From positions 2,460 through 39,487 of the forward strand of contig NSIQ01000011.1 of the NCBI GenBank assembly GCA_002737415.1: a stretch of DNA of 37,028 nucleotides. Direction: 5' to 3'. The translations under genes and the position numbers were made by a program. Below the pieces are notes generated by a model. That model did no database searches and was not told the origin of the DNA. It saw only the letters and a list, made by a program, of their open reading frames with translations. Source of the stretch: Alcaligenaceae bacterium. GTDB lineage: Bacteria; Pseudomonadota; Gammaproteobacteria; Burkholderiales; Burkholderiaceae_B. This document shows, piece by piece, positions 2,917 to 26,457 of this stretch. Within the stretch, counting starts at the first letter, position 1. Each line of letters opens with the position of its first letter.

Positions 2917-4116
2917 TTAGCCTAACCCGCCCGTGGCGCGCAGCGTTTCGATTTCGTCTGCTGTCATGCCAAGCACGTCGCCCAATACCACCTCGGTATG
3001 CTCTCCCAACGATGGTGATGGTGTACGCACCGATCCAGGCGTTGCTGACATTCGAATGGGTACACCCACTACATGCACTTTGCCTGCACGCGGATGATCC
3101 ATCTTGACAATTGCACCACGCGCAACAACCTGCGGGTGCTCAACGACTTGCTTGACGTTATTGATCGAGCCCATCGGGATGCCTGCACCAACGAGGATGG
3201 TTTCCCATTCAGCAAAGCTACGCGTCAAAAAGACCTCTTGCAGCCTGTCAATCAACGCTTTGCGATTTTGCATCCGCACGCTATTCGTCGCAAACCGTGG
3301 ATCATGTGTCATGTCAGAGCAACCGATCAGCGGGCAAAACTCGAGCCATAACTTATCGCTACCCACCGCCAACGCAAGGTCTTGTGTTTTTGTACGAAAG
3401 GTTTGATACGGCAACAAGGCCTTATAAGCTGTGCCCATCGGGCCCGCAATCGTACCCGTCGAAAAATAATCACCGATCATCGTGCTCAGCAGCGAGAGCT
3501 GGCCCTCTAACATCGAGATATCGATCGATTGCCCGACACCCGTTGCGTCTTTGACGCGCAAAGCCATCATGATGCCTAAAGTAGCATTCATGCCCGCAGT
3601 GAGATCCGCGATCGACACGCCCGCACGCGCACCATGCCCACCCTCATCGCCTGTTGCGCTGATCATGCCGCTCTCGGCCTGTACGATTAAATCGAGGGCC
3701 GGACGATCTCGGTAAGGACCATCTTGCCCAAAGCCTGAGATCGAACAATAAATAATGCCGGGGCTACGCTTGCGCGCAACTTCATAATCAACCCCTAGCT
3801 TAGCGAGCGTACCGGGACGAAAGTTTTCAAGTACCACATCGCAGCGCTCGACCATTCGTAAAAATGTCTCTTTGCCCTCGGCGTTTTTTAAGTCGAGCAC
3901 GATACCTTGTTTATTGCGATGAAGCCCAACAAAATAATCGGTTTCACCACCAGGCAATTTTGTGCCCCAAGCACGCGCAATATCACCTTTGCCTGGGGGC
4001 TCGATTTTAATGACCTGCGCACCATAGTCAGCCAGCATCGTCGAACAAAAAGGCCCCGCCAAAGCATGGCTAAGGTCTAGAATTTTGAGGCCTTCAAGAG
4101 GTAATTTCATGAGCAT
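2917..4116 (-). CDS. CaiB/BaiF family (family III) CoA-transferase
   Basis: 399 aa; LEGLKILDLSHALAGPFCSTMLADYGAQVIKIEPPGKGD, VVLENFRPGTLAKLGVDYE, ISGFGQDGPYRDRPALDLIVQAESG. Confidence 0.95.
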   Translation of the reverse strand: MLMKLPLEGLKILDLSHALAGPFCSTMLADYGAQVIKIEPPGKGDIARAWGTKLPGGETDYFVGLHRNKQGIVLDLKNAEGKETFLRMVERCDVVLENFRPGTLAKLGVDYEVARKRSPGIIYCSISGFGQDGPYRDRPALDLIVQAESGMISATGDEGGHGARAGVSIADLTAGMNATLGIMMALRVKDATGVGQSIDISMLEGQLSLLSTMIGDYFSTGTIAGPMGTAYKALLPYQTFRTKTQDLALAVGSDKLWLEFCPLIGCSDMTHDPRFATNSVRMQNRKALIDRLQEVFLTRSFAEWETILVGAGIPMGSINNVKQVVEHPQVVARGAIVKMDHPRAGKVHVVGVPIRMSATPGSVRTPSPSLGEHTEVVLGDVLGMTADEIETLRATGGLG

Positions 4117-4126
4117 GTTCTGTGAA

Positions 4127-5521
4127 TTAACTTTGCTCCATCACCTCAAGGTCGGGCGACACCGCAAAGTCAATCTCGCCCAGCGCTTTGACTTCTTCAG
4201 GTGTAAAGCCAGGAGCAATTGCCTCAAGTACGAAGCGATCGTTAACCCAATGCAAAACCGCCAAATCGGTGACCAACCAATCCACGCACTCGCGACCTGT
4301 CAGTGGATACTTGCAGCGACGGGGCAATTTAGTTCTGCCCTTGCTGTCAGCGTGTTCCATGACAATGATGAGTTCGACTTCACCAGAGATCAAATCCATC
4401 GCGCCACCGATCCCGCCACGACGCGCATCCGTGATGCTCCAGTTCGCCACGTTACCGTCTTGATCGACCTCATAGGCGCCCAAGATGACGGTATCGATAT
4501 GACCACCGCGGGCCATTTCAAAAGACATCACACTCTCAAAGAATGAAGTGCCAGGCACGGCCTCAACGAATTGACCACCCGCATTAAAGACATCGGGGTC
4601 GACTGCATCGCCAGACACGATGCCACCGTAGCCAAGTACACCGTTTTCAGCGTGTAGCCACACGCCGCGACCACCTAGAAAGTTTGAGACTTGCGTGGGG
4701 ATACCAACGCCCAGATTCACATAGGTATTGTCTTTAACGATCTTCGCTGCATTTTTGGCAATGCCGTTGCGGGTCAATGCTTGCTTGCCGTTATAGGTGC
4801 GGGCGCTATCGGCCGCGCGTTTTTCAGCGCGCGTTAGGGTTTTGACATCAATCATGTCAGTGATCTTCAAGACGCGCGTAATAAAAATGCCAGGCAGATC
4901 GATTAACTCGGGGGGCAACTCACCCACCTCAACAATTTCTTCGACCTCAACGATCGCAATCCTTGCCGCTTTAGCAAAGGCTGAATTGAAGTTAGCGCTA
5001 CCACCACGAAATTGGACATTGCCTGCACGATCAGCGCGATAGGCGCTCAAAAAAGCATAGTCAACCTGAATGGCATGCTCAAGCACGTGAGGCTTGCCAT
5101 TGAAATAACGAACGTCTTTACCCTCAGCTAGGTCGGTATCGACCCCGGTTGGCGAGTAGAAAGCTGGGATACCAGCGCCCCCTGCACGACAGCGTTCAAC
5201 CAAAATGCCTTGAGGTACGAGTTCGACGTCAAGTGTGCCTGCGGCGATTCTTTTTTCGCCTTCGGTTTGCATACCGGCCCTGATTGAAAACGCAGCCACC
5301 AGTTTTTTAACCTGATTGTTTTCAACCAAAAGTTGGCCTTTTTCACCAGCGGCGCCCAATGAGTTACAAACCAAGGTCAAGTCTGTTGTGCCTTTGTCTC
5401 GCAAAGCAAAGATCAAATTGTTCGGAAAACGATGTGCCAAACCAAATCCAGCGATCGCGACACTTGCGCCCGCTTGAATATCTGCGATTGCCTGTGCGGC
5501 TGAGGCAACTACCTTATCCAT
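4127..5521 (-). CDS. Fused family I CoA-transferase (A and B subunit domains in one chain)
   Basis: 464 aa; A-type half with IAGFGL and GAGGIPAFYSPTGVDTDLAEGK; B-type half with NLGVGIPTQVSNFL, AENGVLGYGG and ARGGHIDTVILGAYEVD. Confidence 0.92.
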   Translation of the reverse strand: MDKVVASAAQAIADIQAGASVAIAGFGLAHRFPNNLIFALRDKGTTDLTLVCNSLGAAGEKGQLLVENNQVKKLVAAFSIRAGMQTEGEKRIAAGTLDVELVPQGILVERCRAGGAGIPAFYSPTGVDTDLAEGKDVRYFNGKPHVLEHAIQVDYAFLSAYRADRAGNVQFRGGSANFNSAFAKAARIAIVEVEEIVEVGELPPELIDLPGIFITRVLKITDMIDVKTLTRAEKRAADSARTYNGKQALTRNGIAKNAAKIVKDNTYVNLGVGIPTQVSNFLGGRGVWLHAENGVLGYGGIVSGDAVDPDVFNAGGQFVEAVPGTSFFESVMSFEMARGGHIDTVILGAYEVDQDGNVANWSITDARRGGIGGAMDLISGEVELIIVMEHADSKGRTKLPRRCKYPLTGRECVDWLVTDLAVLHWVNDRFVLEAIAPGFTPEEVKALGEIDFAVSPDLEVMEQS

Positions 5522-5570: not shown

Positions 5571-6527
5571 TTAATCCATCTTAATATTCAAAATCTTGTT
5601 TAGCTCGGCCAGTTGACGTTTTTCTTTAGTCATCGCGGCCAAAAACTGTTGCGGGTTGAGCATTTTGAACTCTGACCCCGTCGCTTCGACCCTGGCACGC
5701 ACTTCAGGCTGTGAAAAATACTTCACGCTCGCATCGTACAACACCCGTACAACATTCGCGGGTGTGCCGGCAGGGGCGAGTAATCCGTACCACGAGCCCG
5801 TGTCGTTGGGCACGCCTTGCTCACCCAAGGTCGGCACCTCAGGCAACGCCTTTGCACGCGTCTGAGAAGACAGACCAATGGCGCGAAGCTTGCCCGACTT
5901 AATATGTGGCAGCATGGCCGATAAATTTAAGAACGAGACGTCAACATGCCCACCTAGCATGTCGTTGACCACAGGCGTTGCCCCTTTATAGGGCACATGG
6001 GTCATTTTGATCTTCGCTTCAATTTGAAAAATCTCGCCTGCTATGTGGGTTGAGCTACCTGTTCCGCTTGAGCCATAGGTCATGACTTTTGTTTTGGCTA
6101 ACTCGATGAACTCTTTGACGTTGGTCGCTTTGATGTGGGGGCCAATCACCATCACGTTTGGCACATCGATCATCATCAAAATCGGCGAAAATTCTTTAAT
6201 GCCGTCATAAGGTGGATTAGAGCTAAAGACAGGCACTGCGGTATGAGGTGCACCGGCGCTGGCTAACAGCGTGTAGCCATCAGGAGCGGCTTTGGCGACA
6301 TAGCCCGTGCCAATCGAACCACTACCCCCACCTTTTGTTTCGATCACAAAGGTTTGCCCCAGCGCCTGCGACAACCCGTTTGCAAGTTCACGGGCGATCT
6401 GATCAGCAGGGCCGCCTGCGGGGTAGGGCACAATCATTTTGACCGGTTTGTCTGGGTAGGTCTGCGCCGTCGCGAGCAAAGGCGCAAGCGCCATTATCAA
6501 AAGAACAGCCTGTAAGATTTTTTTCAT
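5571..6527 (-). CDS. Bug/TctC family substrate-binding protein
   Basis: ORF 5571..6587; start at MKKILQAVLL (6527) preferred because of the GGGAG ribosome-binding site and signal peptide; YPDKPVKMIVPYPAGGPADQIAR and HVPYKGATPVVNDMLGG. Confidence 0.9.
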   Translation of the reverse strand: MKKILQAVLLIMALAPLLATAQTYPDKPVKMIVPYPAGGPADQIARELANGLSQALGQTFVIETKGGGSGSIGTGYVAKAAPDGYTLLASAGAPHTAVPVFSSNPPYDGIKEFSPILMMIDVPNVMVIGPHIKATNVKEFIELAKTKVMTYGSSGTGSSTHIAGEIFQIEAKIKMTHVPYKGATPVVNDMLGGHVDVSFLNLSAMLPHIKSGKLRAIGLSSQTRAKALPEVPTLGEQGVPNDTGSWYGLLAPAGTPANVVRVLYDASVKYFSQPEVRARVEATGSEFKMLNPQQFLAAMTKEKRQLAELNKILNIKMD

Positions 6528-6602
6528 TGTGATCTCCCTTTTATCCTTTTCTTCGTTCTGCACGAACCGCACTAAAATAACGCGCAACGCGCTCTTTCTG
6601 AG

Positions 6603-7502
6603 TTACTCGCCACGCGCTTCAGGCTCAACCGGCTCAAAGCGATACCCTTTCGTGCTGTCGCCGCGTATATAACCACAGTGTGGCCAGCCAAAATGCACCG
6701 GAAAAATCATGGCATTACGCTCAGCTGCACGTTTCAAAAACAAGGCGCGCGATACGCGCGCCTGTTCGGCGTGAGCATCAATCCAGGTGTTGATATGCGG
6801 CATCGCAATCTGCAAGGGGCTATGCATCACATCCCCCGCAAAGATCGCTTCTTGCCCTTTTGACTGCAGTCGAAAGTGCAACGAACCCGGCGTATGACCC
6901 GGCATGGCTTCAGCCTTCAAGCAACCCGCCACCACATCGCCATCATCGATTAGATCAATCAAGCCCAGTTCATAAAGCGGCAGCACGCTATCTTCAAACG
7001 AGCCACTGATCACACCCTTGTCACCATTTTTATACGCCGCGTGTGCAGCTTCAAAATCAACCCTCGGCATCAAGTGGCGGGCATTCGGAAACATAGGCTC
7101 CCAGCGACCATCCACCATGCGCGTGCCCCAACCCACGTGGTCCGGATGAAAGTGCGTGACAATCACGTGCGTCACTGATCTTGCACTCGCGCCGGCCGCG
7201 TCAAGCCAAAGTGGCGTCAAGGTGTTGAGCATGTTCATCCGCTCTGAGCCGCGCTTTTTATGATTACCAACCCCCAGGTCAATCACGATCACGTTCTCGC
7301 CCATGTGCATCACCCACAACTGCATGGCAACGATAAAGCGCTGCAGTTTGATGTTGTAGTGATGCGGAGCCAGCCACGACAGATGCGGCACGATGTCGCG
7401 CACATCTAACGCAGGAAACACAAAATCAGCTGCGTGGGTCGGGCCGCTATATTCAAGCACGTTATAAATTTTTGCGTCGCCGATGTGACGGGAGTAGATC
7501 AT
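6603..7502 (-). CDS. MBL-fold metallo-hydrolase
   Basis: 299 aa; THFHPDHVGW (HxHxDH), PGHTPGSLHF and AGDVMHSPLQ metal-binding motifs. Confidence 0.92.
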   Translation of the reverse strand: MIYSRHIGDAKIYNVLEYSGPTHAADFVFPALDVRDIVPHLSWLAPHHYNIKLQRFIVAMQLWVMHMGENVIVIDLGVGNHKKRGSERMNMLNTLTPLWLDAAGASARSVTHVIVTHFHPDHVGWGTRMVDGRWEPMFPNARHLMPRVDFEAAHAAYKNGDKGVISGSFEDSVLPLYELGLIDLIDDGDVVAGCLKAEAMPGHTPGSLHFRLQSKGQEAIFAGDVMHSPLQIAMPHINTWIDAHAEQARVSRALFLKRAAERNAMIFPVHFGWPHCGYIRGDSTKGYRFEPVEPEARGE

Positions 7503-7538: not shown

Positions 7539-8264
7539 TTAACCAACCAAACGATACGTCAAGCGCCACTTCGTGTCGCGATTTTGCCAAGGGGGTGGAC
7601 CATCAGAAAAAGGGCTCGCTCCAGGCACGGCGGCCAACCGATCTTTCATAAACGACTTGGCCGCTGCCTCATCCTTGATGCCATACATCGCCAAAAAGTT
7701 TGGCGCACCGGGCTCGGGGTGCAGAAAGGTACGCATATTTTTATAGCGTGCGCCAGTCACAAAATCATAACCTGCCAACACTTCTGGCACATGGATCGTA
7801 TTGTAAAACTCATTGAATTGCGCCAACTCAGCCTCGCCTGAACCCGCCGCTTCATTCATCCCGACCAGATACATGTAAGGCGAAGCAGACACTTTAGCGG
7901 CTGCAGGGTTGTTTAGTACGTGCTGCCACATCAAACGCCACTTGGTGTTGCGCTGTTGCCAAGCTGCGGGGCCGTCGCTATACACAGGCCGCCCGCTTGC
8001 TGGCCCATCATTGCGACTGATATAAAGTTGTGCCGTCTCTTTGCTTTCAATGTCGTAAGCAGCGATAAATCGTGGCCCACGCGCACCACGCGTGTCGTCT
8101 TGCGCAAGCTCATAACGGCGCCCACGCAAAAAGCCTGGATTGCCCGCCAACACTTCAGGCTTGTGCACATTTGAGTAAAAGTCATTAAACGCTGCAACAT
8201 CGGCAGCACTGGTGTCGACGGGGATATCCATCCCGACCCAGTAGGTGTAAAGCGCGTCGCTCAT
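7539..8264 (-). CDS. Uncharacterised tandem-duplicated protein, probable dimeric alpha-beta-barrel type
   Basis: 241 aa; two homologous halves sharing FN(D/E)FY, HxPEVLAG, GxRY, SDGPxxWQxRxTKWRL. Confidence 0.7.
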   Translation of the reverse strand: MSDALYTYWVGMDIPVDTSAADVAAFNDFYSNVHKPEVLAGNPGFLRGRRYELAQDDTRGARGPRFIAAYDIESKETAQLYISRNDGPASGRPVYSDGPAAWQQRNTKWRLMWQHVLNNPAAAKVSASPYMYLVGMNEAAGSGEAELAQFNEFYNTIHVPEVLAGYDFVTGARYKNMRTFLHPEPGAPNFLAMYGIKDEAAAKSFMKDRLAAVPGASPFSDGPPPWQNRDTKWRLTYRLVG

Positions 8265-8280: not shown

Positions 8281-8682
8281 TCAAGCCAGTTTAAACATCG
8301 GAATCGCGGGACCCTCTTCGCTGGGCTTGAAGGTCACCGCGACCTTCTGTCCACAACGAATCGTATCCAAGTCGCAATCAACGATATTGGTCAGCATCGT
8401 AATGCCTTCGTCAAGCGTGACATAAGCGATGGCATAAGGCACAGGCCCCGAGGTACGCGTAACACTATAGCTATACACCGTACCCGTACCTTGGACTTGT
8501 TTAAATTCAGTTTTATCACTGAAGCAAAACGGGCAAAGCGCACGAGGATAGTGATGATATTGTTTGCAGTCGTTGCAAAACTTCAGCATCAACTTGCCTT
8601 GCGTGGCCGCGTCAAAATAAGGCTCATCGCCGAAGTTTAACTTGGGGGCGGGGATTTTTCTGTCTTGATAGGGTGTGGTCAT
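8281..8682 (-). CDS. DUF35 / OB-fold zinc-ribbon acyl-CoA-associated protein
   Basis: 133 aa; zinc ribbon CNDCKQYHHYPRALCPFC then OB-fold GTVYSYSVTRTSGPVPYAIAYVTLDEG; adjacent to the thiolase-like gene. Confidence 0.9.
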   Translation of the reverse strand: MTTPYQDRKIPAPKLNFGDEPYFDAATQGKLMLKFCNDCKQYHHYPRALCPFCFSDKTEFKQVQGTGTVYSYSVTRTSGPVPYAIAYVTLDEGITMLTNIVDCDLDTIRCGQKVAVTFKPSEEGPAIPMFKLA

Positions 8683-8686
8683 GGCT

Positions 8687-9844
8687 TTACTCTCTTTCCA
8701 TAATCAGTGTGGCACTGCCGTGACGGGTGCTCAGCGAGCCGCCGGTTCCGTGCGCCAAGGCAATATCGCAGTTTTTAACTTGCACTAAGGGATGCGCTTC
8801 GCCGCGTAATTGGCGTACGGCCTCAATGATCTTGGTAATGCCGCCACGGTTCACCGGATGGTTGTTACACATCCCACCCCCATCTGTGTTGAAGGGAAGT
8901 TTGCCAACACCCGAAATCAAGTTCCCATCCATCACAAACTTGCCACCCTCGCCCTTTTTACAAAAGCCAAGATCCTCAAGCGTCATCACCACAGTGATCG
9001 TGAAGCTGTCGTAAATTGACGCGTACTTGATATCGCTGGGCTTAACGCCTGCTTCAGCAAACGCGATCGGCCCCGAGCGCACAGCCCCGGTATACGTAAT
9101 ATCAATCTTGCCGCCCATCTGCCCCTTGGGTGATTCGCCAGCGCCAATTAACTTTACTAACGGACGTTTCAAGCGCTTAGCAATCTCTGGGCTCACCACA
9201 ATGACCGCGCCACCACCATCGGTGACCACGCAGCAATCCATCCGATGCAGCGGGTCGGCAATCAAGGGGGAGTTGACGACGTCTTCAACGGTGACCACTT
9301 TTTTCAAGTATGCGTTGGGATTGTGTTGCGCATGGTGCGATGCAGAAACCTTGACCCAAGCCAGTTGTTCACTGGTGGTGCCAAACTCATACATATGCCG
9401 CATCGCAGCAAGCGCATACAGGTTGACCGTGACAGGCCCATATGGCGTTTCAAAAGGGGTGTCTGGGATAGCAGTATCCAAATCACGCGCGATCGTGCCG
9501 GGGCGTCCAAAACCCGCACAGGTAATCAAGGCAACACTGCACTTGCCCGCCGCAATGGCTTCAGCCGCATGCGCGACTAAATACATATAAGACGACCCGC
9601 CTGTGTTGGTCGAGTCAGAGTGTTTAACCGTCAACCCCATGTAGTCAATCATGTTGATGCCACCCAGGCTGCCAGGCGCATCGGTCGAGCAGTAATAGCC
9701 GTCGACGTCATGAATGGTCAGGCCGGCGTCTTCAAGCGCCCCTTTGGCACACTCAGCGTGCAAGTGCGCCAGCGACATATTGGTGATTTTGCGAGCCGGA
9801 TGCTCGAAGATCCCGGCGATATAGGCCTTGCCTTTAATACTCAT
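8687..9844 (-). CDS. Thiolase-superfamily (SCP2/Ltp-like) protein
   Basis: 385 aa; thiolase-like HAAEAIAAGKCSVALITC, MDCCVVTDGGGAVIVVS, YDSFTITVVMTLEDLGFC and GGMCNNHPVNRGG segments. Confidence 0.88.
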   Translation of the reverse strand: MSIKGKAYIAGIFEHPARKITNMSLAHLHAECAKGALEDAGLTIHDVDGYYCSTDAPGSLGGINMIDYMGLTVKHSDSTNTGGSSYMYLVAHAAEAIAAGKCSVALITCAGFGRPGTIARDLDTAIPDTPFETPYGPVTVNLYALAAMRHMYEFGTTSEQLAWVKVSASHHAQHNPNAYLKKVVTVEDVVNSPLIADPLHRMDCCVVTDGGGAVIVVSPEIAKRLKRPLVKLIGAGESPKGQMGGKIDITYTGAVRSGPIAFAEAGVKPSDIKYASIYDSFTITVVMTLEDLGFCKKGEGGKFVMDGNLISGVGKLPFNTDGGGMCNNHPVNRGGITKIIEAVRQLRGEAHPLVQVKNCDIALAHGTGGSLSTRHGSATLIMERE

Positions 9845-10024: not shown

Positions 10025-10822
10025 ATGCCAGAGCAGTCATCACCATTACTCAGGTCAGTGCACGAGGGCGTCATGACGCTCGTCATGAATCGACCAGAGC
10101 GCCTCAATGCGCTCAGTCCCGAGCTGTACGACCAGCTAGGCCAGACCCTGCTTGAGGCTAAAGATAATAAGCAGATTGGCGCAATCGTGCTGACCGGTGC
10201 GGGCAATGCCTTTTGCGCAGGTGGCGACGTGGCCCGCATGGCGAACTCACCCGCAGAGTCTATATCTTTTGAGCAAAAAGTCGCGCGCTTACGGCAGCGC
10301 AATCTAATTACAGAATTGCTTCATACCCTACCCATCCCCACCATCGCGATGATTCGCGGCCCAGCTGCGGGCGCCGGACTGTGTTTGGCGCTGGCTTGCG
10401 ACTTTCGCTATGCAGATGATTCGGCAAAATTCAAAACGGCGTTTATCAACGTGGGCTTGCCCGGTGATTTTGGTGGGCATTATTTTTTACCGCGTATCGT
10501 CGGTTTTGCGAAGGCTCGCGAACTGTATTTGCTATCGCCCACCCTCAGTGCGCAGCAAGCGCAAGATTTGGGGTTGCTGACGGGCCTTTGCTCGCGTGAA
10601 AATCTTGAATCAGAGGTCATCGCAATTGCTCAGAAACTTGCTAAAGGCCCTCGACAAGCACTCACATTGATGAAAGACAATTTAAACCAAGCCTTGCAAA
10701 ACACCCTAGATCAAGTGCTGAATCAAGAAGCTTTTAATCATGTGACCGCAACGCTTGCCGCCGATCACAAAGAGGCTGCACTAGCGTTTATCGAAAAACG
10801 ACCACCCAAATTTGAACGATAA
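10025..10822 (+). CDS. Enoyl-CoA hydratase/isomerase (crotonase) family protein
   Basis: 265 aa; GAGNAFCAGGDVARM, IRGPAAGAGLCLALACDFRYAD, FINVGLPGDFGGHYFLPRIVG. Confidence 0.93.
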   Translation: MPEQSSPLLRSVHEGVMTLVMNRPERLNALSPELYDQLGQTLLEAKDNKQIGAIVLTGAGNAFCAGGDVARMANSPAESISFEQKVARLRQRNLITELLHTLPIPTIAMIRGPAAGAGLCLALACDFRYADDSAKFKTAFINVGLPGDFGGHYFLPRIVGFAKARELYLLSPTLSAQQAQDLGLLTGLCSRENLESEVIAIAQKLAKGPRQALTLMKDNLNQALQNTLDQVLNQEAFNHVTATLAADHKEAALAFIEKRPPKFER

Positions 10823-10867: not shown

Positions 10868-11767
10868 ATGAGCCGTTTATGTGAAGGACGCGTCGCAATC
10901 GTTACCGGCGCTGCACGTGGAATTGGGCGCGAATATGCCTTGCAATTAGCCGTCTGTGGGGCCAAAGTCGTTGTCAATGACCTTGGCGTGTCACGCGAAG
11001 GTTTAGGCAAAGACACGACTGCCGCGCAACAAGTAGTTGACGAAATCAAAGCAGCGGGCGGTGAAGCCATCGCAAACTGTGACGACGTTTCTGAATGGAA
11101 AGAAGCCGAGCATATGATCCACAGCACGGTCGAGCACTTTGGCAAGCTCGACGTCGTGATCAATAACGCAGGCATTCTTCGTGACCGAATGCTTGTGAAC
11201 ATGGAAGAAAGCGAGTGGGATGCCGTCATCAAGGTTCATTTAAAAGGAACCTTCGCACCTTGCCACCACGCTGCCGTGTACTGGCGAGCTCAGCAAAAAC
11301 TCACCGGCGAATCTGTGAACGCACGACTCATCAATACCACTTCATTTTCGGGCTTGCTCGGCAACATTGGGCAAAGCAATTACGGCGCCGCCAAAGCCGG
11401 GATCGCTGCATTCACCATCATCGCTGCGCGTGAATTAAAACGTTATGGAATCACGGTCAATGCCATTAGCCCGCATGCACAAACGCGCATGACAGAAAGC
11501 TTACGCGAGCGCACGCCCGAAGAAATCGCGCAGCGGCACCCTCGTTGGATCGCCGCTGCTGCAACCTGGCTTGCCAGCGCTGAAAGCGCCGAAGTCACCG
11601 CGCGGGTGTTTGAATTGGGTGGCGGGTTTCTTGCAGCGATGGAAGGCTGGCATCGCGGGCCTCAAACCGAACCGATCGACAACCCAAATGCAATCGGCAC
11701 TGTCATGTTGGACTTGGCGCGTCGAGCGCGACGCAATGCAGACATGCGCGGTAACGATCTGGATTAG
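10868..11767 (+). CDS. SDR family oxidoreductase (hydroxyacyl-CoA dehydrogenase-like)
   Basis: 299 aa; VTGAARGIGREYALQLA, NNAGILRD, YGAAK catalytic motif. Confidence 0.93.
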   Translation: MSRLCEGRVAIVTGAARGIGREYALQLAVCGAKVVVNDLGVSREGLGKDTTAAQQVVDEIKAAGGEAIANCDDVSEWKEAEHMIHSTVEHFGKLDVVINNAGILRDRMLVNMEESEWDAVIKVHLKGTFAPCHHAAVYWRAQQKLTGESVNARLINTTSFSGLLGNIGQSNYGAAKAGIAAFTIIAARELKRYGITVNAISPHAQTRMTESLRERTPEEIAQRHPRWIAAAATWLASAESAEVTARVFELGGGFLAAMEGWHRGPQTEPIDNPNAIGTVMLDLARRARRNADMRGNDLD

Positions 11768-11769
11768 CC

Positions 11770-12438
11770 ATGATCAACAAGCGTGTTGACTCAATGGCGC
11801 AAGCGTTGCAAGGCATCAAGGATGGCGATGTTCTGCTGATCGGCGGTTTTGGTACGTCGGGGCAACCTACAGAATTGTTAGCGGGTGTTCTTGAACTCGG
11901 GGCAAGAGACCTGACCTTAGTCGCTAACAATACCACCATGGGTAATGATATTGTGGCCGACTTGATGCGAGCCAATCGCGTGAGAAAATGCGTATGCTCG
12001 TTTCCGAGAGGCTTGCTTGGAAAGACAATCTTTGACGAACTCTACAGCGCCGGCAAGATCGAGCTTGAACTTGTCCCACAGGGCACTTTGGCCGAACGCA
12101 TTCGCGCGGGCGCCGCGGGTATTGGCGGGTTCTTTACGCGCACCGCCGCAGGTACCGACTTAGCGCACGGCAAAGAGACACGCCTCATTGACGGCAAAGA
12201 GTATGTTTTTGAAAAACCCTTAGTTGGAGATGTGGCCTTAATTAAAGCAAAAAAAGGTGATCGCTGGGGTAATTTGGTTTATCACCGTGGCGCCCGCGTG
12301 AATAACCCCGCGATGGCGGGAGCAGCGAAGCTTGTCGTCGCGCAAGTCGATGCGTTTGTCGAATTGGGAGAACTCGATCCAGAGCATATCGTCACACCTG
12401 GGTTGTTCATCGACCGCTTATTTGAGATAAAAAAATGA
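11770..12438 (+). CDS. Family I CoA-transferase subunit A
   Basis: 222 aa; LIGGFGTSGQPTELL, GAAGIGGFFTRTAAGTDLAHGKETRLIDGKEYVFE. Confidence 0.93.
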   Translation: MINKRVDSMAQALQGIKDGDVLLIGGFGTSGQPTELLAGVLELGARDLTLVANNTTMGNDIVADLMRANRVRKCVCSFPRGLLGKTIFDELYSAGKIELELVPQGTLAERIRAGAAGIGGFFTRTAAGTDLAHGKETRLIDGKEYVFEKPLVGDVALIKAKKGDRWGNLVYHRGARVNNPAMAGAAKLVVAQVDAFVELGELDPEHIVTPGLFIDRLFEIKK

Positions 12439-13130
12439 AAGGGCTCAATAGGCAAGATATCGCCCGCATCGCGGCAGAAGATATTCCCGAAGGCTTGTGC
12501 GTCAATCTTGGTATTGGTTTGCCCACCATGATCGCAGATTACATCCCGCTTGGTCGCGAGGTTTTGCTGCACAGCGAACAAGGACTAATGGGGCTCGGAC
12601 CGGCTCCAGCAGCAGGGCAAGAGGATAGCGATATCGTCAACGCAGGCAAGTTGCCCGTCACGCTCCTAAAAGGTGCCTCGATTTTTAGCCATAGCGATTC
12701 TTTCTTGATGATCCGCGGAGGCCACATCGATATCGCCTGCCTTGGCGCCTTTCAAGTCGCTGAAAATGGAGATCTCGCCAACTGGTCAACGGGCTTGTCG
12801 ACAGAAACCCCAGGGGTAGGCGGGGCGATGGATCTTGCCGCGGGCGCTGCAAACGTTTGGGTGCTGATGGAGCATTGCCAAAAGGATGGTACACCACGCC
12901 TACTCGAACGCTGCACTTATCCATTAACCGGTCACAAATGCGTGACAAGAATTTATACAAATTACGCTTTAATCGAAATCTGCTCGACTGGTTTTGTCGT
13001 AGAAAGAATCGCCAACGACATCGACTTCGAAACACTGCAAAAAATAACCGGTGCACCACTGCAACTTAGCCCACAATGCGCACCCTACCTGCCGGGCGTG
13101 GCGCGTGACACAGGAACTCATCATGCTTGA
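12435..13130 (+). CDS. Family I CoA-transferase subunit B
   Basis: 231 aa; NLGIGLPTMIADYIP, HSEQGLMGLGP (catalytic Glu region), RGGHIDIACLGAFQV; start overlaps subunit A stop. Confidence 0.93.
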   Translation: MKGLNRQDIARIAAEDIPEGLCVNLGIGLPTMIADYIPLGREVLLHSEQGLMGLGPAPAAGQEDSDIVNAGKLPVTLLKGASIFSHSDSFLMIRGGHIDIACLGAFQVAENGDLANWSTGLSTETPGVGGAMDLAAGAANVWVLMEHCQKDGTPRLLERCTYPLTGHKCVTRIYTNYALIEICSTGFVVERIANDIDFETLQKITGAPLQLSPQCAPYLPGVARDTGTHHA

Positions 13131-13578
13131 AGTCGAATTCCCTTCAGATATGAAGCAATACGTGGGTCAAAAGGTTGGCAGCAGTGACTGGCTGACCGTG
13201 GATCAAAAACGGATCGATGACTTTGCCGCGGTCTCTGGTGACCATAACTGGATTCACATTGATCGCGAGCGTGCAAAACAACAGATGCCAAATGGCAAAA
13301 CAATCGCCCATGGCATGCTCACGCTTTCGCTCGTGACCTATTTGGCTAGTCAAATTGTTCGTATTAAGCAACGCTCGCGCGGGGTCAACTATGGCCAAAA
13401 CAAAGTTCGCTTCGTCAGCCCCGTGCAGTGTGGTGCTCGCATTCGCTTACACCGCACACTCGAGAAATATGACGAGATCGAGGGCGGTGCGCGGCTGACT
13501 TACAGCAACACCATCGAGATTGAAGGGGTCGCGAAGCCAGCGCTAGTCGCCGAGACGCTGACCGTTGTTTATCGATAG
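13123..13578 (+). CDS. MaoC-like (R)-specific enoyl-CoA hydratase
   Basis: Start MLEVEF at 13123 overlaps the preceding stop; VSGDHNWIHIDRERA and IAHGMLTLSLV. Confidence 0.9.
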   Translation: MLEVEFPSDMKQYVGQKVGSSDWLTVDQKRIDDFAAVSGDHNWIHIDRERAKQQMPNGKTIAHGMLTLSLVTYLASQIVRIKQRSRGVNYGQNKVRFVSPVQCGARIRLHRTLEKYDEIEGGARLTYSNTIEIEGVAKPALVAETLTVVYR

Positions 13579-13828: not shown

Positions 13829-15433
13829 CTACCGTGCGTACACAACCCCTGCCCCACCCCTTGGGTCAGCACCGCCCCGCATACGGCCCCCAATGGTTGA
13901 AATCACGTGCGCACGCGACATGCTGGGCTCAAAGCTATGCGCGCTCTGATGAACCGTATGACCTAACGCCCGTAACTCTTTAATAACCGAGCGCGGCACG
14001 GTGGCCTCAGTGTGTATCCCCAGACCCTCGCAATGAATACGCGGAACAGTGACCGCTTCCACCGGCGACATCCCAAAATCCACCACGTTCAAAATAGCTT
14101 GCAACGTAGCGCTGATGATCACGCTCCCCCCTGGCGCGCCAGCTAACAGCACAGGCTTGCCGTCCTTGAGCAACATGGTGGGTACCATCCCGGTGGTACG
14201 CGCTTTACCTGGGGCCATCGAATTCTTTTTATTCGGGACTGGATCAAACAGCTTCATCGAGTTGTTATAGTTAAAACCTAAGCCCGGGCTGACGACGCCC
14301 GCGGCTGTACCGAGCGTATGGGTCATCGATACCGCATTACCTTCGCTATCCATGACGCAGACATGCGTGGTGCATCCCGGTGGCGCCTCTTCTTGGCCAC
14401 CTGCATACCGACCCGACTGAATCCGTTCAGCCCAATACGCCGCACGCTTTTTAGAAATCAGCATCTCGGTGGGGACGTCTGCAAAACGTGGATCGCCTAA
14501 ATATGCATTGCGATCAACGTGGGCGGCAGCCATTGCGCGCGCCACTAAATCTATGTGCTGTGCCGAGCCATGGTCGAGTGCGCTCAAATCAAAATGCTCT
14601 AGGATCTGCAACATTTCAATCAAGGTTGCACCACTGCCTGGTGGCGGATTAGAGCGCACCTCATAGCCCCGATAAGACCCCACCAAGGGCGCACTTTCTT
14701 CGGGTTGATAGTCGGCCAAGTCTTGGCGGGTGACAAAGGCGCCATTCGCTTCTAGGTCACGGGCGATTTCATCGCCGAGCGCACCTCGATGAAACTCGCG
14801 CCACCCCCCTTTGGCGAGTCGCTCTAGTGTGCGTGCATAGTCAGGCAGGTGCATCACATCACCAACCTTAAACAAACGCCCTTTGGGATGCAAATACACA
14901 CGCGCGCATTCGGCGGTTTTGCGAATGCGTGTGAGACCATCCGGAATACCAAGCTGAGCGTAACCGCTCCAGACAGTTGCCAAATTTGGTGTGATCAGGA
15001 TGCCCTCGTCGGCTTGCTCAATCGCCGGTACGATCAAATCGGTCCAAGGCATCGAGCCTAGCTTTTCATGAAATAAACCGAGTCCCGCTGGCGTACCAGG
15101 CGTCATGATCGCGGTGTAGCCGATCTCGCTTCGAAAATCATCAAACAAGCTATAGCCAGAAATCGGTGTGCGACCCTTGCAGTCTTTTTCCCACATATTA
15201 GGACGCACTTTAGAGCCCGCGCGGTTATAGAAATCTATCATCCCGCTTGTGCCCGTCGCTGCATGAAAGTAGTGCAAGGTCCCCATGCCGCCCAAGCCGC
15301 ACATAAAAGGGTCATTGACCATTTGCGAGAAAGCCGTTGCCAACGCGGCATCAAAGGCGTTGCCGCCCTTCTCAAGCACCTCTGCTCCCACCTCAGCAGC
15401 ACGCGGTTGCGGACACACGACAACACCTTTCAT
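13829..15433 (-). CDS. Gamma-glutamyltransferase
   Basis: ORF 13829..15496; start MKGVVVCPQPRAAEVG at 15433 preceded by GGGGAA; TTHVCVMDSEGNAVSMTHTLG and GAPGG motifs. Confidence 0.93.
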   Translation of the reverse strand: MKGVVVCPQPRAAEVGAEVLEKGGNAFDAALATAFSQMVNDPFMCGLGGMGTLHYFHAATGTSGMIDFYNRAGSKVRPNMWEKDCKGRTPISGYSLFDDFRSEIGYTAIMTPGTPAGLGLFHEKLGSMPWTDLIVPAIEQADEGILITPNLATVWSGYAQLGIPDGLTRIRKTAECARVYLHPKGRLFKVGDVMHLPDYARTLERLAKGGWREFHRGALGDEIARDLEANGAFVTRQDLADYQPEESAPLVGSYRGYEVRSNPPPGSGATLIEMLQILEHFDLSALDHGSAQHIDLVARAMAAAHVDRNAYLGDPRFADVPTEMLISKKRAAYWAERIQSGRYAGGQEEAPPGCTTHVCVMDSEGNAVSMTHTLGTAAGVVSPGLGFNYNNSMKLFDPVPNKKNSMAPGKARTTGMVPTMLLKDGKPVLLAGAPGGSVIISATLQAILNVVDFGMSPVEAVTVPRIHCEGLGIHTEATVPRSVIKELRALGHTVHQSAHSFEPSMSRAHVISTIGGRMRGGADPRGGAGVVYAR

Positions 15434-15701
15434 GCTATTTCCCCTATTTACCTTGGGCAAATCCCATTGACTGACAAACCGCAGCCTGCACATCAAGAGT
15501 TTGGACCATTTTTGTCAGTCGCACCATTCAGTTTTGGTATTTAGTCTACTTTGGCCCCAGAATCAATCACGACTCACCACCGATTCCCTCCGTCATGCGC
15601 CCAGCTGCAAACAATCGACGGTCGTCAAAGACCTCTACCTTTTCTAAGGGACTACGTGATCCTAGGGATATTGGCGGACTATTTTTTTAAAAAAATACAT
15701 A

Positions 15702-20764: not shown

Positions 20765-21712
20765 ATGCCACCCATGCGACGCATTTCAGTTGTTGTGCCG
20801 GTTTATAACGGCGCTGAGACTGTACCCAAACTCATCGAACAGCTGGACAAACACCTGAGACCACAAAACTCTTTAGAGCTTATTTTGGTCAACGATGGCA
20901 GCACACGCGACAATTCCGATGAGGTTTGCGAGGTTGCGGCGCAACAAAACGACTGGATTGTTTATATAGAACTTTCAACAAATTTCGGAGAACACAACGC
21001 CGTCATGGCGGGGTTAAACCACTGCACAGGTGACTATGTCGTGATCATGGATGATGATCTACAAAACCCGCCTCATGAAGCCATTCGACTTGTTGATGAG
21101 CTCGACCGAGGGGGCTATGACGTGGTTTTTTCTTGCTACAAGAAAAAAAAACATGGGTTGTCGAGAAACTTAGGGAGTTCTTTTAATAACCTGATCGCAA
21201 GCTATGTCCTAAAGAAACCAAGAGATCTCTACCTTTCCTCATTCAAGTGTATCCGTCGGTCGGTGGTTAAACAGATCATTAAATATGATGGCCCTTACCC
21301 CTATATTGATGGCCTGATCCTTAGAAGCACCACCCGTTACGGTCGGTTAGAGGTAGAGCATTTCAGTCGAGAGGTCGGACGCTCTGGTTATTCGCTGCGC
21401 AAACTTGTGAGCCTTTGGCTCAATATGTTCACAAACTTTTCGATCTTGCCGCTGCGCATTGCCAGTGCCATTGGATTACTGCTTGCAACCCTTAGCGGCT
21501 TGGCAGGGGTTGTTGTCATTATCGAAAAAATCATGAACCCGGATCTCCCCACGGGTTGGGCATCAGTTTTTGTTGCAATCTTATTTATGTCTAGCGTGCA
21601 GCTTTTAGCGATCGGTCTGATGGGCGAGTATCTAGGGAGAGTGCTGATGAAGCTAAATAAGATACCTCAGTTTGTGGTGCGCAGAACCATCCGCAACAAG
21701 GAGCAAGCCTAA
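20765..21712 (+). CDS. Family 2 glycosyltransferase, polyisoprenyl-phosphate hexose transferase type (GtrB/ArnC/DPM1-like)
   Basis: 315 aa; ISVVVPVYNGAETVPKLIEQL, MDDDLQNPPHEAIRLVDEL, two C-terminal TM helices. Confidence 0.92.
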   Translation: MPPMRRISVVVPVYNGAETVPKLIEQLDKHLRPQNSLELILVNDGSTRDNSDEVCEVAAQQNDWIVYIELSTNFGEHNAVMAGLNHCTGDYVVIMDDDLQNPPHEAIRLVDELDRGGYDVVFSCYKKKKHGLSRNLGSSFNNLIASYVLKKPRDLYLSSFKCIRRSVVKQIIKYDGPYPYIDGLILRSTTRYGRLEVEHFSREVGRSGYSLRKLVSLWLNMFTNFSILPLRIASAIGLLLATLSGLAGVVVIIEKIMNPDLPTGWASVFVAILFMSSVQLLAIGLMGEYLGRVLMKLNKIPQFVVRRTIRNKEQA

Positions 21713-22711
21713 TTGGTTTATGACGAAAGCTGGTATTCGGGTCGATCAGTGCTCATCACAGGGGGGCTCGGATTCATCGGAAGCTCACTTGCCATCCGCA
21801 TGGTGGCCCTTGGGGCTAAGGTTACTTTGTTAGACGCCATGATTAAGGAATTTGGCGGCAACTGGAAAAATATCGAACCCATCCGAGAGCAAGTCCATGT
21901 CTTCCAAGATGATATGCGTAACTTTCAAGCCTTATCTCAGATTGTTAAAGGGCAAGAAGCAATATTTCATTTGGCAGGACAGGTCAGTCACGGCGACAGC
22001 ATGCTCGAGCCCTTGACTGACTTGGGGGTGAATTGCGTGTCAACCATGAATTTGGTTGAGGCTTGTAGGATACACAACCCTAACGCCCGGATTGTCTACA
22101 CCTCGACAAGGCAAGTCTACGGTACTCCACAGAAGCTTCCCGTTAAGGAAGACCACCCAGTATTACCAATTGATGTAAACGGCATCAACAAACTCGCCGC
22201 TGAGTACTACCACCTGCTGTACCACCAAGTTTACGACGTTAAGTCAACGGTTTTACGGCTAACAAATACTTACGGACCAAGGCTTCAAATCCAGAACGAC
22301 CGACAGGGGTTTATCGGTGTATTTCTCAAGCGGTGTCTCAGTGGAAGAGAGATTCATATATTTGGCGATGGGATGCAGGTACGCGACTTCAACTACGTGG
22401 ATGATGTGGTGCAAGCGCTAGTCCTTGCGCTACTACATGACCAATGCTTTGGACATGTTTTTAATCTCGGGTCCCCAGATCGATACGATCTCTTAAATTT
22501 TGTACAAACACTGGCCACCCTAACTGATGTAACCTACCAACTTGTACCGTTTCCCTCAGACAAGAAACTGATCGATATTGGCGACTATTATGGTGACTAC
22601 TCTGCATTTTCTGAAGTGACTGGTTGGCAGCCCCAAATAAATCTCCGCGAAGGCTTGGCTAAGACGCTGGCTTACTACCAAGCCCACCGCATCAATTACT
22701 TAACCCCGTGA
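21713..22711 (+). CDS. NAD-dependent epimerase/dehydratase (extended SDR)
   Basis: 332 aa, TTG start; VLITGGLGFIGSSLA, YTSTRQVYG, LRLTNTYGPR, RDFNYVDDVVQAL. Confidence 0.92.
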   Translation: MVYDESWYSGRSVLITGGLGFIGSSLAIRMVALGAKVTLLDAMIKEFGGNWKNIEPIREQVHVFQDDMRNFQALSQIVKGQEAIFHLAGQVSHGDSMLEPLTDLGVNCVSTMNLVEACRIHNPNARIVYTSTRQVYGTPQKLPVKEDHPVLPIDVNGINKLAAEYYHLLYHQVYDVKSTVLRLTNTYGPRLQIQNDRQGFIGVFLKRCLSGREIHIFGDGMQVRDFNYVDDVVQALVLALLHDQCFGHVFNLGSPDRYDLLNFVQTLATLTDVTYQLVPFPSDKKLIDIGDYYGDYSAFSEVTGWQPQINLREGLAKTLAYYQAHRINYLTP

Positions 22712-23817
22712 CTGTAAAAACCATCAAGATGTTTGATTATCGGGATCAGTATCTTGATCTTGAAAAGGAAGTGCTCGGTGCGGTGCAACGCGTGCTGCGC
22801 TCGGGCGAATTGATTCTTGGATCAGAAGTTGAGAAATTTGAGTCAGGCTTTTCAGAATTTTTGGGTCATGGCACCCACAGTTTAGGCGTAGCCAATGGCA
22901 CGGATGCCTTAGTTATTTGTCTGATGGCGCTAGGCGTTGGGCCGGGTGATGAGGTCATCACGGTAGCGAATACCGCTGTACCAACTGTCAGCGCGATAAG
23001 GATGGTGAGGGCGACGCCAGTGTTTGCCGACGTGGACCCCGAAACCTCTCTAATGGACTTAAAGCTCGTACCAGAGCTCATCACGTCAAAAACCCGCGCG
23101 ATCATCCCTGTCCATTTGTTTGGCAATGCAGTCAATATGCCATTACTTTTAGACATCGCGCGACCCTACAATATCTCTGTTGTAGAAGATTGCGCGCAAG
23201 CTCACGGTACTCTGATCAATGGGCGCGCGGCTGGAACGTTTGGTCACGCGGCTGCATTTTCGTTTTATCCAACGAAGAACCTTGGTGCCTACGGTGATGG
23301 TGGGCTGTGCGCAACTGCAGATGCATCGCTCGCCAAAGAAATGCGGCGGATTCGTAAGTACGGTTTTGATGACCTGTATTACGCGGAACGCGAGGGAATT
23401 AACAGTCGACTCGACGAAGTACAGGCGGCAATCCTAAATATTAAACTCAGATACCTGCCCGCACAATTACAAAAACGACGAGCACTTGCTGAGGTATACA
23501 AGGCTGGCCTGCCCACCTCTCTGAGACACATGGCAGCGCCATCGAATATTGAGCATGCTTATCACCTGTTTGTGGTGCGCTCAAAGGAACGTGACGCCCT
23601 CAGGGCAGCGCTTGCCAGTCACAATATACAGACTGGCATTCACTATCCGTTCCCGATTCATCGAATGAGAGGCTACACATTTTTAGGCTATCAGGACCAA
23701 AGCTTGCCCATTACAGAGGCTCTTGCCAACGAGATCGTTTCTTTGCCTCTATATCCAGAATTACCTTTAGAAAGTGCTCATCGGGTACTCGATACACTGC
23801 ATGAAATCCTGGATTGA
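22708..23817 (+). CDS. DegT/DnrJ/EryC1/StrS family sugar aminotransferase
   Basis: 369 aa, GTG start overlapping the preceding TGA; GVANGTDALVICLMALGVGPGDEV, FSFYPTKNLGAYGDGGL (PLP lysine), INSRLDEVQAAIL. Confidence 0.94.
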   Translation: MTVKTIKMFDYRDQYLDLEKEVLGAVQRVLRSGELILGSEVEKFESGFSEFLGHGTHSLGVANGTDALVICLMALGVGPGDEVITVANTAVPTVSAIRMVRATPVFADVDPETSLMDLKLVPELITSKTRAIIPVHLFGNAVNMPLLLDIARPYNISVVEDCAQAHGTLINGRAAGTFGHAAAFSFYPTKNLGAYGDGGLCATADASLAKEMRRIRKYGFDDLYYAEREGINSRLDEVQAAILNIKLRYLPAQLQKRRALAEVYKAGLPTSLRHMAAPSNIEHAYHLFVVRSKERDALRAALASHNIQTGIHYPFPIHRMRGYTFLGYQDQSLPITEALANEIVSLPLYPELPLESAHRVLDTLHEILD

Positions 23818-23959
23818 AACTCTTAAAATTTTAAGATATTGGCACCAGAACCACCTGCGCATTAACTTTACAAGTACATTCAAGCACCATCAACCCTTTG
23901 CTATGATTTTTTTTGACGACGGTAAACTTTGTGGTTCAACGTAGTTGGGTGTTTAAGTC

Positions 23960-24715
23960 ATGATCGATAATCGTCGTGAGTATGAAGTGATGGCTGAAGT
24001 GGAGACCAATCACTGGTGGTACCGCATTCTGCATAGCCTCGTTTTGGAGAGCATCGAACGCGAACTAATGTCACCGAACATCCATGTATTAGACGCAGGT
24101 TGTGGAACTGGCGGACTCATACATAGTCTCAAAGCGGCTGGCTATCGACAGGTCAAGGGATTTGACCTTTCTCCAATTGCGGTCGACATTTGTCAAAAGA
24201 AAGGGCTTGATGTTCAATTAGGTAGCCTGAACGACATTGCAACGATACAAGCTCCCTCAAAGTTTGATGTCATTATCAGCAATGACACGCTCTACTATTT
24301 GTCTGCCGACCAACAGTTGGCCTTCCTTAAAAATGCCAACACGCGCTTGAACAGGGGCGGGCTTATTCTGATGAATATGCCCGCACTGGCGGCATTTCGC
24401 GGTACACATGACCGAGCTGTTGGAATTCTTCATCGCTTTAATCGGCTCGAGGTGAAGGAGCTTATTCAGTCAGCTGGTTTTGAAGCACTAACACTGCGCT
24501 ACTGGCCCCTCAGTCTATCGCCTGCTATTTTTGTTGTACGGGCATGGCAAAGACTCAAATACGACCCCGCCAGTTTAATCAAACCGTTGTCCGACCTGAA
24601 ATCTCACAGTGTTTTGCTCAACACCCTGCTTTATCGCTTAATTAGACTCGAAATACGCTTAGCCAGAAACACACCATTTGGTAGTTCTTTGTTTACTGTC
24701 CTTCGGCGAACTTAA
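23960..24715 (+). CDS. Class I SAM-dependent methyltransferase
   Basis: 251 aa; NHWWYRILHSLV, VLDAGCGTGGLIHSLKAAGY, KFDVIISNDTLYYL. Confidence 0.9.
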   Translation: MIDNRREYEVMAEVETNHWWYRILHSLVLESIERELMSPNIHVLDAGCGTGGLIHSLKAAGYRQVKGFDLSPIAVDICQKKGLDVQLGSLNDIATIQAPSKFDVIISNDTLYYLSADQQLAFLKNANTRLNRGGLILMNMPALAAFRGTHDRAVGILHRFNRLEVKELIQSAGFEALTLRYWPLSLSPAIFVVRAWQRLKYDPASLIKPLSDLKSHSVLLNTLLYRLIRLEIRLARNTPFGSSLFTVLRRT

Positions 24716-24840: not shown

Positions 24841-26457
24841 TCAACGAAGTGCGTCTGCGGACATGCAGCAATAGCGACCAAACTCTATTGCTCGCGAACG
24901 GTCCGCTTCTGGAATGTTAGCGCAAAGGGCGACTAGGCCCTGGACGCGACGCTTTCGAAACGTTTCGCGAACATTAGACTCCGCGGCCCACCAACCAGCC
25001 GCATAATCAAGAAAAATCGGCTGCTCATGGGCCCAAAACGCTTGATAGGTGTCTTTATCCAATACCAGGCGTTGCGCGCTGCCTTCGATACCACACTCCT
25101 TTCTGGCAAAGTCGCGCAAGCCTTGGTTTTGGCGGTCAACCATCTCCACTTGCTGCAAACGAGCTTGGCGCCAACCCGGCACAAACTCACCGAACCTTTC
25201 TTCACGCAAAATACCCGAGAGTAGTGCCACAACCATCAGCACGGCAATTATTATGCGAACACGCCCACGGCTTGATTCACTGACCGGCCGACCAAAACTA
25301 AAAATTGCGAGTAATAACACCAGCGGCCATACGATTGAAACTTCATAAAAGTTCTTTTGCGTTTGCAACACAACGATAGAAGCTAGTGAGAGCAAGATTG
25401 AGAAGAACAGCAAGAGGTCAACGCGTCCTCTTGGTCTTCTGTCAAAAAACCAGTTTGAAGCGATAACCAGCACAGCGACTAAAAGGGGTATCCATAAAAG
25501 AATGTTCGCCACTGAACTAGCCTGTGTACTAATCACTCCACCCTTCCTCGCAGGTAGCCAATCCACAACGTATTGCTCTTGAAAATTAAGACTTCTGACG
25601 TAAGCACCAAAATCAAGAGCGTTACTCCAGCCTTGTTGAATAAATGTTAAGGGCTTGGATAATAGAACATCTGGTTTGAGCGTAAGCCCACTAAGAGTTG
25701 ACATCAATCCAGGAAACTCTGGGCATGTCGTTCGTAGCTGCCAGACTTGTGAGGTGTCGTAGGCAGTCCACCCAAGAACTAATCCTAGCAGGACTAGCAA
25801 GGGCCATGATTTCAATTGTCGCCAAGCCAGCACCAGTAAAACGGGAAATAAAAACATGCCCTTGGGGTGAATCCCCGCTAAAAGCATTGCCACCAGAGCA
25901 AAGCTTAAGACCACCAGAAGGCCAATTAGCCAACTCAAACGATTTGCAGGTGCCCTATACAAAGTCACCAAAAGACTGAGTGTTAGTAAAAGCAAAAGGG
26001 GCTGCTCGGGCCGTGCGTAAACCAAAAGAAACGGCAGTACGCCAACTGACAAAAACGCACTGACTGCTAGGAATGCGTCAATCACTCTAAGGCCAGTGCG
26101 GTGTTTCAGCAAACAAGTCCAGAGCGTTAGTAAAACCAAAAAGAAGAACCAGCCGTGAACACGAAGACGCCAAGGATGACCGGCATCCTCATAAAGCCAT
26201 GAATTAATTGACATAGCAGGGTACCAAGTCAAGGGTGCATCGATCCACTGACCTTCACTGCATTGCGCAAATATATAAACGAGCTTGCCGTGGTCGGTTT
26301 CAAGCCGAGCAATCATCAGCTTCCAAAAAATCTCATCTGTGTATACCGGGAAATAAAAAACTATCCACAGCGTCAACAGAAATGACAAGACGAAAGCAAG
26401 CGTGAGCAGAGCATAGAGACTGCGTGGTAAATATCTAAGTAACGATTGAGGCTGCAT
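24841..26457 (-). CDS. Polytopic membrane protein, probable GT-C fold glycosyltransferase (ArnT/PMT-like)
   Basis: 538 aa, many TM helices; acidic YTDEIFWKLMIAR motif after TM1. Confidence 0.75.
   Translation of the reverse strand: MQPQSLLRYLPRSLYALLTLAFVLSFLLTLWIVFYFPVYTDEIFWKLMIARLETDHGKLVYIFAQCSEGQWIDAPLTWYPAMSINSWLYEDAGHPWRLRVHGWFFFLVLLTLWTCLLKHRTGLRVIDAFLAVSAFLSVGVLPFLLVYARPEQPLLLLLTLSLLVTLYRAPANRLSWLIGLLVVLSFALVAMLLAGIHPKGMFLFPVLLVLAWRQLKSWPLLVLLGLVLGWTAYDTSQVWQLRTTCPEFPGLMSTLSGLTLKPDVLLSKPLTFIQQGWSNALDFGAYVRSLNFQEQYVVDWLPARKGGVISTQASSVANILLWIPLLVAVLVIASNWFFDRRPRGRVDLLLFFSILLSLASIVVLQTQKNFYEVSIVWPLVLLLAIFSFGRPVSESSRGRVRIIIAVLMVVALLSGILREERFGEFVPGWRQARLQQVEMVDRQNQGLRDFARKECGIEGSAQRLVLDKDTYQAFWAHEQPIFLDYAAGWWAAESNVRETFRKRRVQGLVALCANIPEADRSRAIEFGRYCCMSADALR

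Follow-up and report, generated by a model that had tools for sequence, protein, structure and literature searches.

The thiolase-like gene and its DUF35 partner

The window, i.e. the whole stretch of 37,028 nucleotides that was analyzed, carries on its minus strand two co-directional genes, situated where the first-pass annotation had placed them, which encode a thiolase-like protein and a DUF35 protein:

8687..9844, minus strand: thiolase-fold protein without the nucleophilic Cys, 385 aa, candidate catalytic subunit of an acyl-CoA retro-aldolase (ORF, NF006010, Thiolase_C_1, AlphaFold2, Foldseek)
8281..8682, minus strand: DUF35 partner (zf-ChsH2 and OB fold), 133 aa (Pfam PF12172 and PF01796; phmmer; C4 motif)

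Four bases separate the stop codon of the thiolase-like gene from the ATG of the DUF35 gene, the spacing that had been noted before. The thiolase-like protein is a clear member of NCBIfam family NF006010 (PRK08142; 695.7 bits, cut-off 462), a sequence family named ‘thiolase domain-containing protein’ that has no assigned reaction, and it also matches the Pfam model Thiolase_C_1 (172.8 bits). The DUF35 protein contains a C4 zinc ribbon (C36-x2-C39-x10-C50-x2-C53) and finds its best phmmer match in ChsH2(DUF35), 6ok1_B. In a context comparison of 90 homologous loci, a DUF35 gene lies near 89 of them.

Active-site residues

Alignment with thiolases and with related aldolases singled out four codons:

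9596..9598, minus strand: Gly83, where thiolases have the nucleophilic Cys (alignment; invariant in 45 homologues)
9011..9013, minus strand: Tyr278 in YDSF, equivalent to the catalytic bases Tyr294 of TcLtp2 and Tyr302 of CtSal (alignment, PMC12329534; invariant in 45)
9005..9007, minus strand: Ser280, aligned with Sal Cys304 (acid), Ltp2 His296 (oxyanion hole) and the Cys of SCP2-thiolase HDCF (alignment; invariant in 45)
8858..8860, minus strand: His329 in the HP motif, aligned with Ltp2 Tyr344 and Sal Gln352; putative general acid (alignment; invariant in 45)

The three motifs quoted in the first-pass annotation read exactly as given there, namely STNTGGSSYMY around residue 83, NNHPVNRGG at 327-335 and AHGTGGSLSTRHGSA at 364-378. 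Its claim that the nucleophilic Cys is missing is borne out, as Gly83 aligns with the nucleophilic Cys of 7yvy, 6esq, BbsB, SCP2-thiolase and a thiolase from the same genome (L008). A conserved Cys at this position, which would have spoken against an aldolase, was sought in the alignment and not found, and Gly is likewise present there in Sal, Ltp2 and IpfD. The further claim that both Cys are replaced stands insofar as the second catalytic Cys is absent, but the C-terminal CxG site named for it was wrong. This site was rejected because the thiolases 7yvy, BbsB and L008 also have no Cys there in the alignment; the relevant residue in the SCP2-thiolase lineage, of which the query is a member, is the Cys of HDCF (PMC12329534). 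In the query the HDCF site reads Y278-D-S280-F, and both the His and the second Cys of an SCP2-type thiolase are thus absent. The same exchange of the HDxF His for Tyr is seen in Ltp2, Sal and the ibuprofen protein IpfD, in contrast to five genuine thiolases, which have Cys and His. The His of the thiolase GHP motif is kept as His329 in NNHP, as the HP motif had been read at the outset. Across 45 aligned homologues with 70-97% identity, drawn from Proteobacteria, Bacilli and other phyla, Gly83, Tyr278, Ser280 and His329 never vary, and the residue set can therefore be attributed neither to chance nor to sequencing error.

Comparison with characterized enzymes

The steroid C3 side-chain aldolase Ltp2-ChsH2(DUF35) of Thermomonospora curvata (6ok1) resembles the query pair in its thiolase fold, the Gly at the nucleophile site, the Tyr base in Y-D-x-F and a DUF35 protein with a C4 zinc ribbon. 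The catalytic pair of TcLtp2, established by mutagenesis and structure, consists of Tyr294 in Y294-D-H-F and a second Tyr, Tyr344 (PMC12329534), whereas the query has YDSF and His329, with 32% identity in the fold alignment. Sal-Shy(DUF35) of Comamonas testosteroni (9myr), a bile-acid C5 side-chain aldolase, also combines Gly at the nucleophile site with a DUF35 partner and a catalytic Tyr302 that corresponds to Tyr278. CtSal carries the motif Y302-D-C304-Y together with Gln352, and mutagenesis and structure identified Tyr302/Cys304 as its catalytic pair (PMC12329534). At 31% identity, the query differs from Sal in having Ser280 and His329 in place of Cys304 and Gln352, and its DUF35 protein is free-standing with a C4 site, whereas that of Sal is fused to a MaoC hydratase and has a C3H1 zinc site. 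On these sequence features the query is excluded from the Ltp2 subfamily, since YDHF and the second catalytic Tyr (Tyr344) are absent and it sits on a separate branch, and from the Sal subfamily by Ser280, His329 and the free-standing DUF35.

IpfD-IpfE, encoded on plasmid pIBU218 and involved in ibuprofen degradation, shares the Gly/Tyr exchange and an adjoining DUF35-type protein with the query, and growth on ibuprofen depends on the IpfD gene (PMC9195938). IpfD is Ltp2-like, with the motif YDAF and a Tyr in place of His329, and the query differs from it in both respects. The closest solved structure, 4u4e, is a thiolase-like protein of Sphaerobacter thermophilus with 41% identity and the same Gly/Tyr/Ser/His set; no function was found for it beyond the entry title, ‘putative thiolase.’ SCP2-thiolases and BbsB have the fold and the HP motif in common with the query, but their Cys nucleophile and the His of HDxF are absent from it.

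Predicted structure and family-wide distribution

The thiolase-like protein was modeled with AlphaFold2 (pLDDT 82.8, pTM 0.89), and this model was used as the query of a Foldseek search. The first match was 4u4e, followed by Sal-DUF35 (9myr) and Ltp2-DUF35 (6ok1) at ranks 2-4, and every thiolase ranked lower than these aldolases. PhlC, BbsB and MucABC were also among the matches. The loop 325-331, which carries His329, was predicted with low confidence, so its modeled geometry is tentative.

Relatives were gathered from the source genome, related genomes, plasmids, GTDB genomes and a phylum-wide Pfam search, and were reduced at 70% identity to 38. Among these, Tyr278 is found in 25/25 relatives with Gly83 versus 0/12 with Cys83 (Fisher p = 5e-10), and DUF35 is fused to the protein or encoded close by in 24/25 versus 3/12 (p = 2e-5); the rows are related by descent, so both p values overstate independence. 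The Gly/Tyr/Ser/His set is the commonest in the sample (10/38), which, being centered on the query, is not a census. The reference sequences of solved structures are partial and were copied by hand from printed alignments; the columns used agree with print, while single-letter slips are possible elsewhere.

When the three motif regions that hold the active-site columns are left out of the tree, the switch from Cys to Gly/Tyr needs one change, with weak support (52/15) for the branch between the two sides. An all-column tree with fewer rows sets the thiolases apart at 100/100. The tree without motif regions unites Sal, the Ltp2/IpfD branch and the query branch in one set (95/98), with the query outside the Ltp2/IpfD branch. 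Three features of the broad class of DUF35-dependent thiolase-fold aldolases are found in the query: a fold nearest to Ltp2 and Sal, Gly combined with Tyr in YDxF/Y, and an adjoining gene for a zinc-ribbon DUF35 protein. The class itself is already known from Ltp2, Sal and IpfD. The query branch is widespread, and our literature search of open-licence papers found neither a characterized member of it nor a paper naming the family or the residue set.

In the source genome (3.4 Mb), which belongs to a freshwater bacterium, seven thiolase-fold proteins, the query among them, show the Gly/Tyr exchange, and each of these has a DUF35 neighbor; two others have the Cys/His of the thiolase type (loci L002-L008, L184).

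Genomic neighborhood

The gene pair is followed on the minus strand by a series of genes, and a divergent operon starts on the plus strand:

7539..8264, minus strand: EthD/DUF4286-like protein with two similar halves or repeats, beside the pair in most close relatives (profile match, relatives' context)
6603..7502, minus strand: metallo-beta-lactamase-fold hydrolase, lactonase type (profile match; kept in the operon)
5571..6587, minus strand: TctC-type periplasmic binding protein of a tripartite tricarboxylate transporter (profile match, relatives' context)
4127..5521, minus strand: fused 3-oxoacid-type CoA-transferase, A and B halves (TIGR02429 and TIGR02428)
2917..4116, minus strand: class III CoA-transferase (CaiB/BaiF), in several relatives (profile match)
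10025..10822, plus strand: enoyl-CoA hydratase/isomerase, first gene of the divergent operon and possible supplier of 3-hydroxyacyl-CoA
10868..11767, plus strand: SDR oxidoreductase (PRK07791 type), homologous to SDRs near the gene pair in Rhodococcus, Mycobacterium and Variovorax
11770..13578, plus strand: 3-oxoacid CoA-transferase subunits A and B and a MaoC-type hydratase

Within the genus, many genomes carry a near-identical locus, and the cultured Zwartia hollandica LF4-65, which also has the gene pair, encodes a protein 93% identical to the query. Within the query's own lineage the pair is followed in order by the EthD-like protein, the metallo-beta-lactamase-fold hydrolase, TctC and the fused CoA-transferase, the last being the most persistent neighbor after DUF35; shorter versions consist of the pair with the CoA-transferase, an arrangement also seen in Agrobacterium vitis, or of the pair alone. 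The divergent operon (enoyl-CoA hydratase, SDR, CoA-transferase A/B, MaoC) is found only in the closest relatives and is absent in more distant ones that keep the pair, and several distant bacteria combine the pair with acyl-CoA dehydrogenases, hydratases, CoA ligases and an SDR. Across the 90 loci, neither reference proteins nor unsupervised clustering revealed a general neighbor other than DUF35, and conserved context was dropped as a guide to the substrate for this reason. Given these mixed sets of acyl-CoA genes, the neighbors point to acyl-CoA catabolism and not to one substrate.

Several other observations concern the window and its relatives. The listed start of the MaoC ORF (GTG at 13051; ORF 13051-13578) overlaps the CoA-transferase B gene by 80 bases, and the true start probably lies further downstream. 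Among 72,556 plasmid records the EthD-like protein (7539-8264) has one weak match, with 29% identity, in Rhizobium jaguaris. Two separate genes of the gamma-glutamyltranspeptidase family (45-1913 and 13829-15496) lie on either side of the catabolic cluster, and a 538-aa ORF (24841-26457) with no Pfam match adjoins a set of methyltransferase, aminotransferase, epimerase and glycosyltransferase genes (20765-24715). Public MAGs titled Candidatus Methylopumilus and Bordetella parapertussis (L048, L049, L053) hold copies 81-99% identical to the query, and these titles look unreliable; L048 and L049 (97-99% identical) also share its operon.

Proposed reaction and alternative explanations

The gene pair is likely to encode a DUF35-dependent, two-subunit retro-aldolase that would cleave a 3-hydroxyacyl-CoA. 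This interpretation, in keeping with the aldol cleavage suggested in the first-pass annotation, is supported by the predicted fold, the loss of Cys, the residues Tyr278, His329 and Ser280, the linkage to DUF35 and the kinship with proven aldolases; fold search, residue alignment and phylogeny each place the query with Sal and Ltp2, apart from the Cys-dependent thiolases. Both the Tyr base and the need for DUF35 are experimental results in relatives of the query (PMC12329534, PMC12502768).

We infer all steps of the mechanism from Ltp2 and Sal. A carboxylate would be converted to its CoA ester by a neighboring CoA-transferase and, where needed, hydrated by the enoyl-CoA hydratase or the MaoC hydratase. 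Tyr278 would remove the proton of the 3-hydroxyl, upon which the C-alpha/C-beta bond would break, releasing an aldehyde or ketone and leaving a short acyl-CoA as its enolate. Protonation of the enolate would follow, with His329 as the most likely donor and Ser280 either helping or forming part of the oxyanion hole, and DUF35 would complete the substrate cleft. By analogy with the two mutagenized relatives, Tyr278 is most likely the base. His329 is probably the acid, because it is a conserved ionizable residue located where Ltp2 has its acid and because Ser280 is a poor acid. The C304S variant of Sal is inactive (PMC12329534), and Ser280 is therefore unlikely to act as an acid in the way of Sal Cys304. 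Against the aldolase assignment, the second catalytic residue is unlike that of both characterized aldolases (His329 for Ltp2 Tyr344; Ser280 for Sal Cys304), the loop with His329 is poorly predicted, and no aldehyde dehydrogenase is conserved beside the pair in the 90 loci.

The main alternative is a Cys-free retro-Claisen cleavage, in which an SDR would oxidize the 3-hydroxyacyl-CoA to a 3-ketoacyl-CoA and the thiolase-fold protein would cleave the latter with water or CoA, without an acyl-enzyme. Genes for SDRs of a single family adjoin the pair in Rhodococcus, Methylobacterium and Mycobacterium, lie in its vicinity in Pseudonocardia and form part of the divergent operon here; counted over all loci, an SDR of this family lies within 8 kb at 13/90, directly adjoining in several, which would fit a 3-ketoacyl-CoA route, as would the 3-oxoacid type of the neighboring CoA-transferases. 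Most of the 90 loci, however, have no such SDR nearby, and distant relatives keep the pair without the divergent operon. Moreover, the aligned thiolases keep Cys83 and His278, and those relatives with this Gly/Tyr exchange whose function is proven are aldolases, so we regard the retro-Claisen route as unlikely.

Acyl transfer or condensation by a C-acyltransferase or synthase of the PhlABC/MucABC or BbsAB kind, acting with DUF35, would be in keeping with the shared fold, the DUF35-type partners and the presence of PhlC, BbsB and MucABC in the fold search. It appears highly improbable, given that BbsB keeps the nucleophilic Cys where the query has Gly83, that the entry title of the PhlC-type structure gives a C88S variant, which points to a catalytic Cys, and that the query groups with the aldolases and apart from BbsB in both trees. 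Similarly, we see very little chance that the query is a catalytically weak or structural thiolase-like protein comparable to the SLP of Trypanosoma brucei. TbSLP has a related YDCF motif and no established function, its only known activity being a very low decarboxylation of malonyl-CoA (PMC12329534), but the invariance of the active-site residues of the query in 45 homologues across several bacterial phyla argues for a catalytic role.

Returning to the retro-aldolase, we tentatively raise the possibility that the Gly83/Tyr278/Ser280/His329 set is a third catalytic solution for thiolase-fold aldolases, one that would combine a Tyr base with the kept HP His as acid and that may be widespread in non-steroid catabolic routes of many bacteria.

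Conclusions

The characterized examples found in open-licence papers act on steroids and ibuprofen only. Many bacterial proteins annotated as ‘thiolase’ or ‘acetyl-CoA acetyltransferase’ have no catalytic Cys, which makes the standard mechanism impossible, and the rule of Gly83 and Tyr278 beside DUF35 marks such proteins as likely aldolases. If the assignment is correct, a common class of enzymes that split C-C bonds in acyl-CoAs with branches or rings would be misannotated, and the known mechanism would have a third active-site version.
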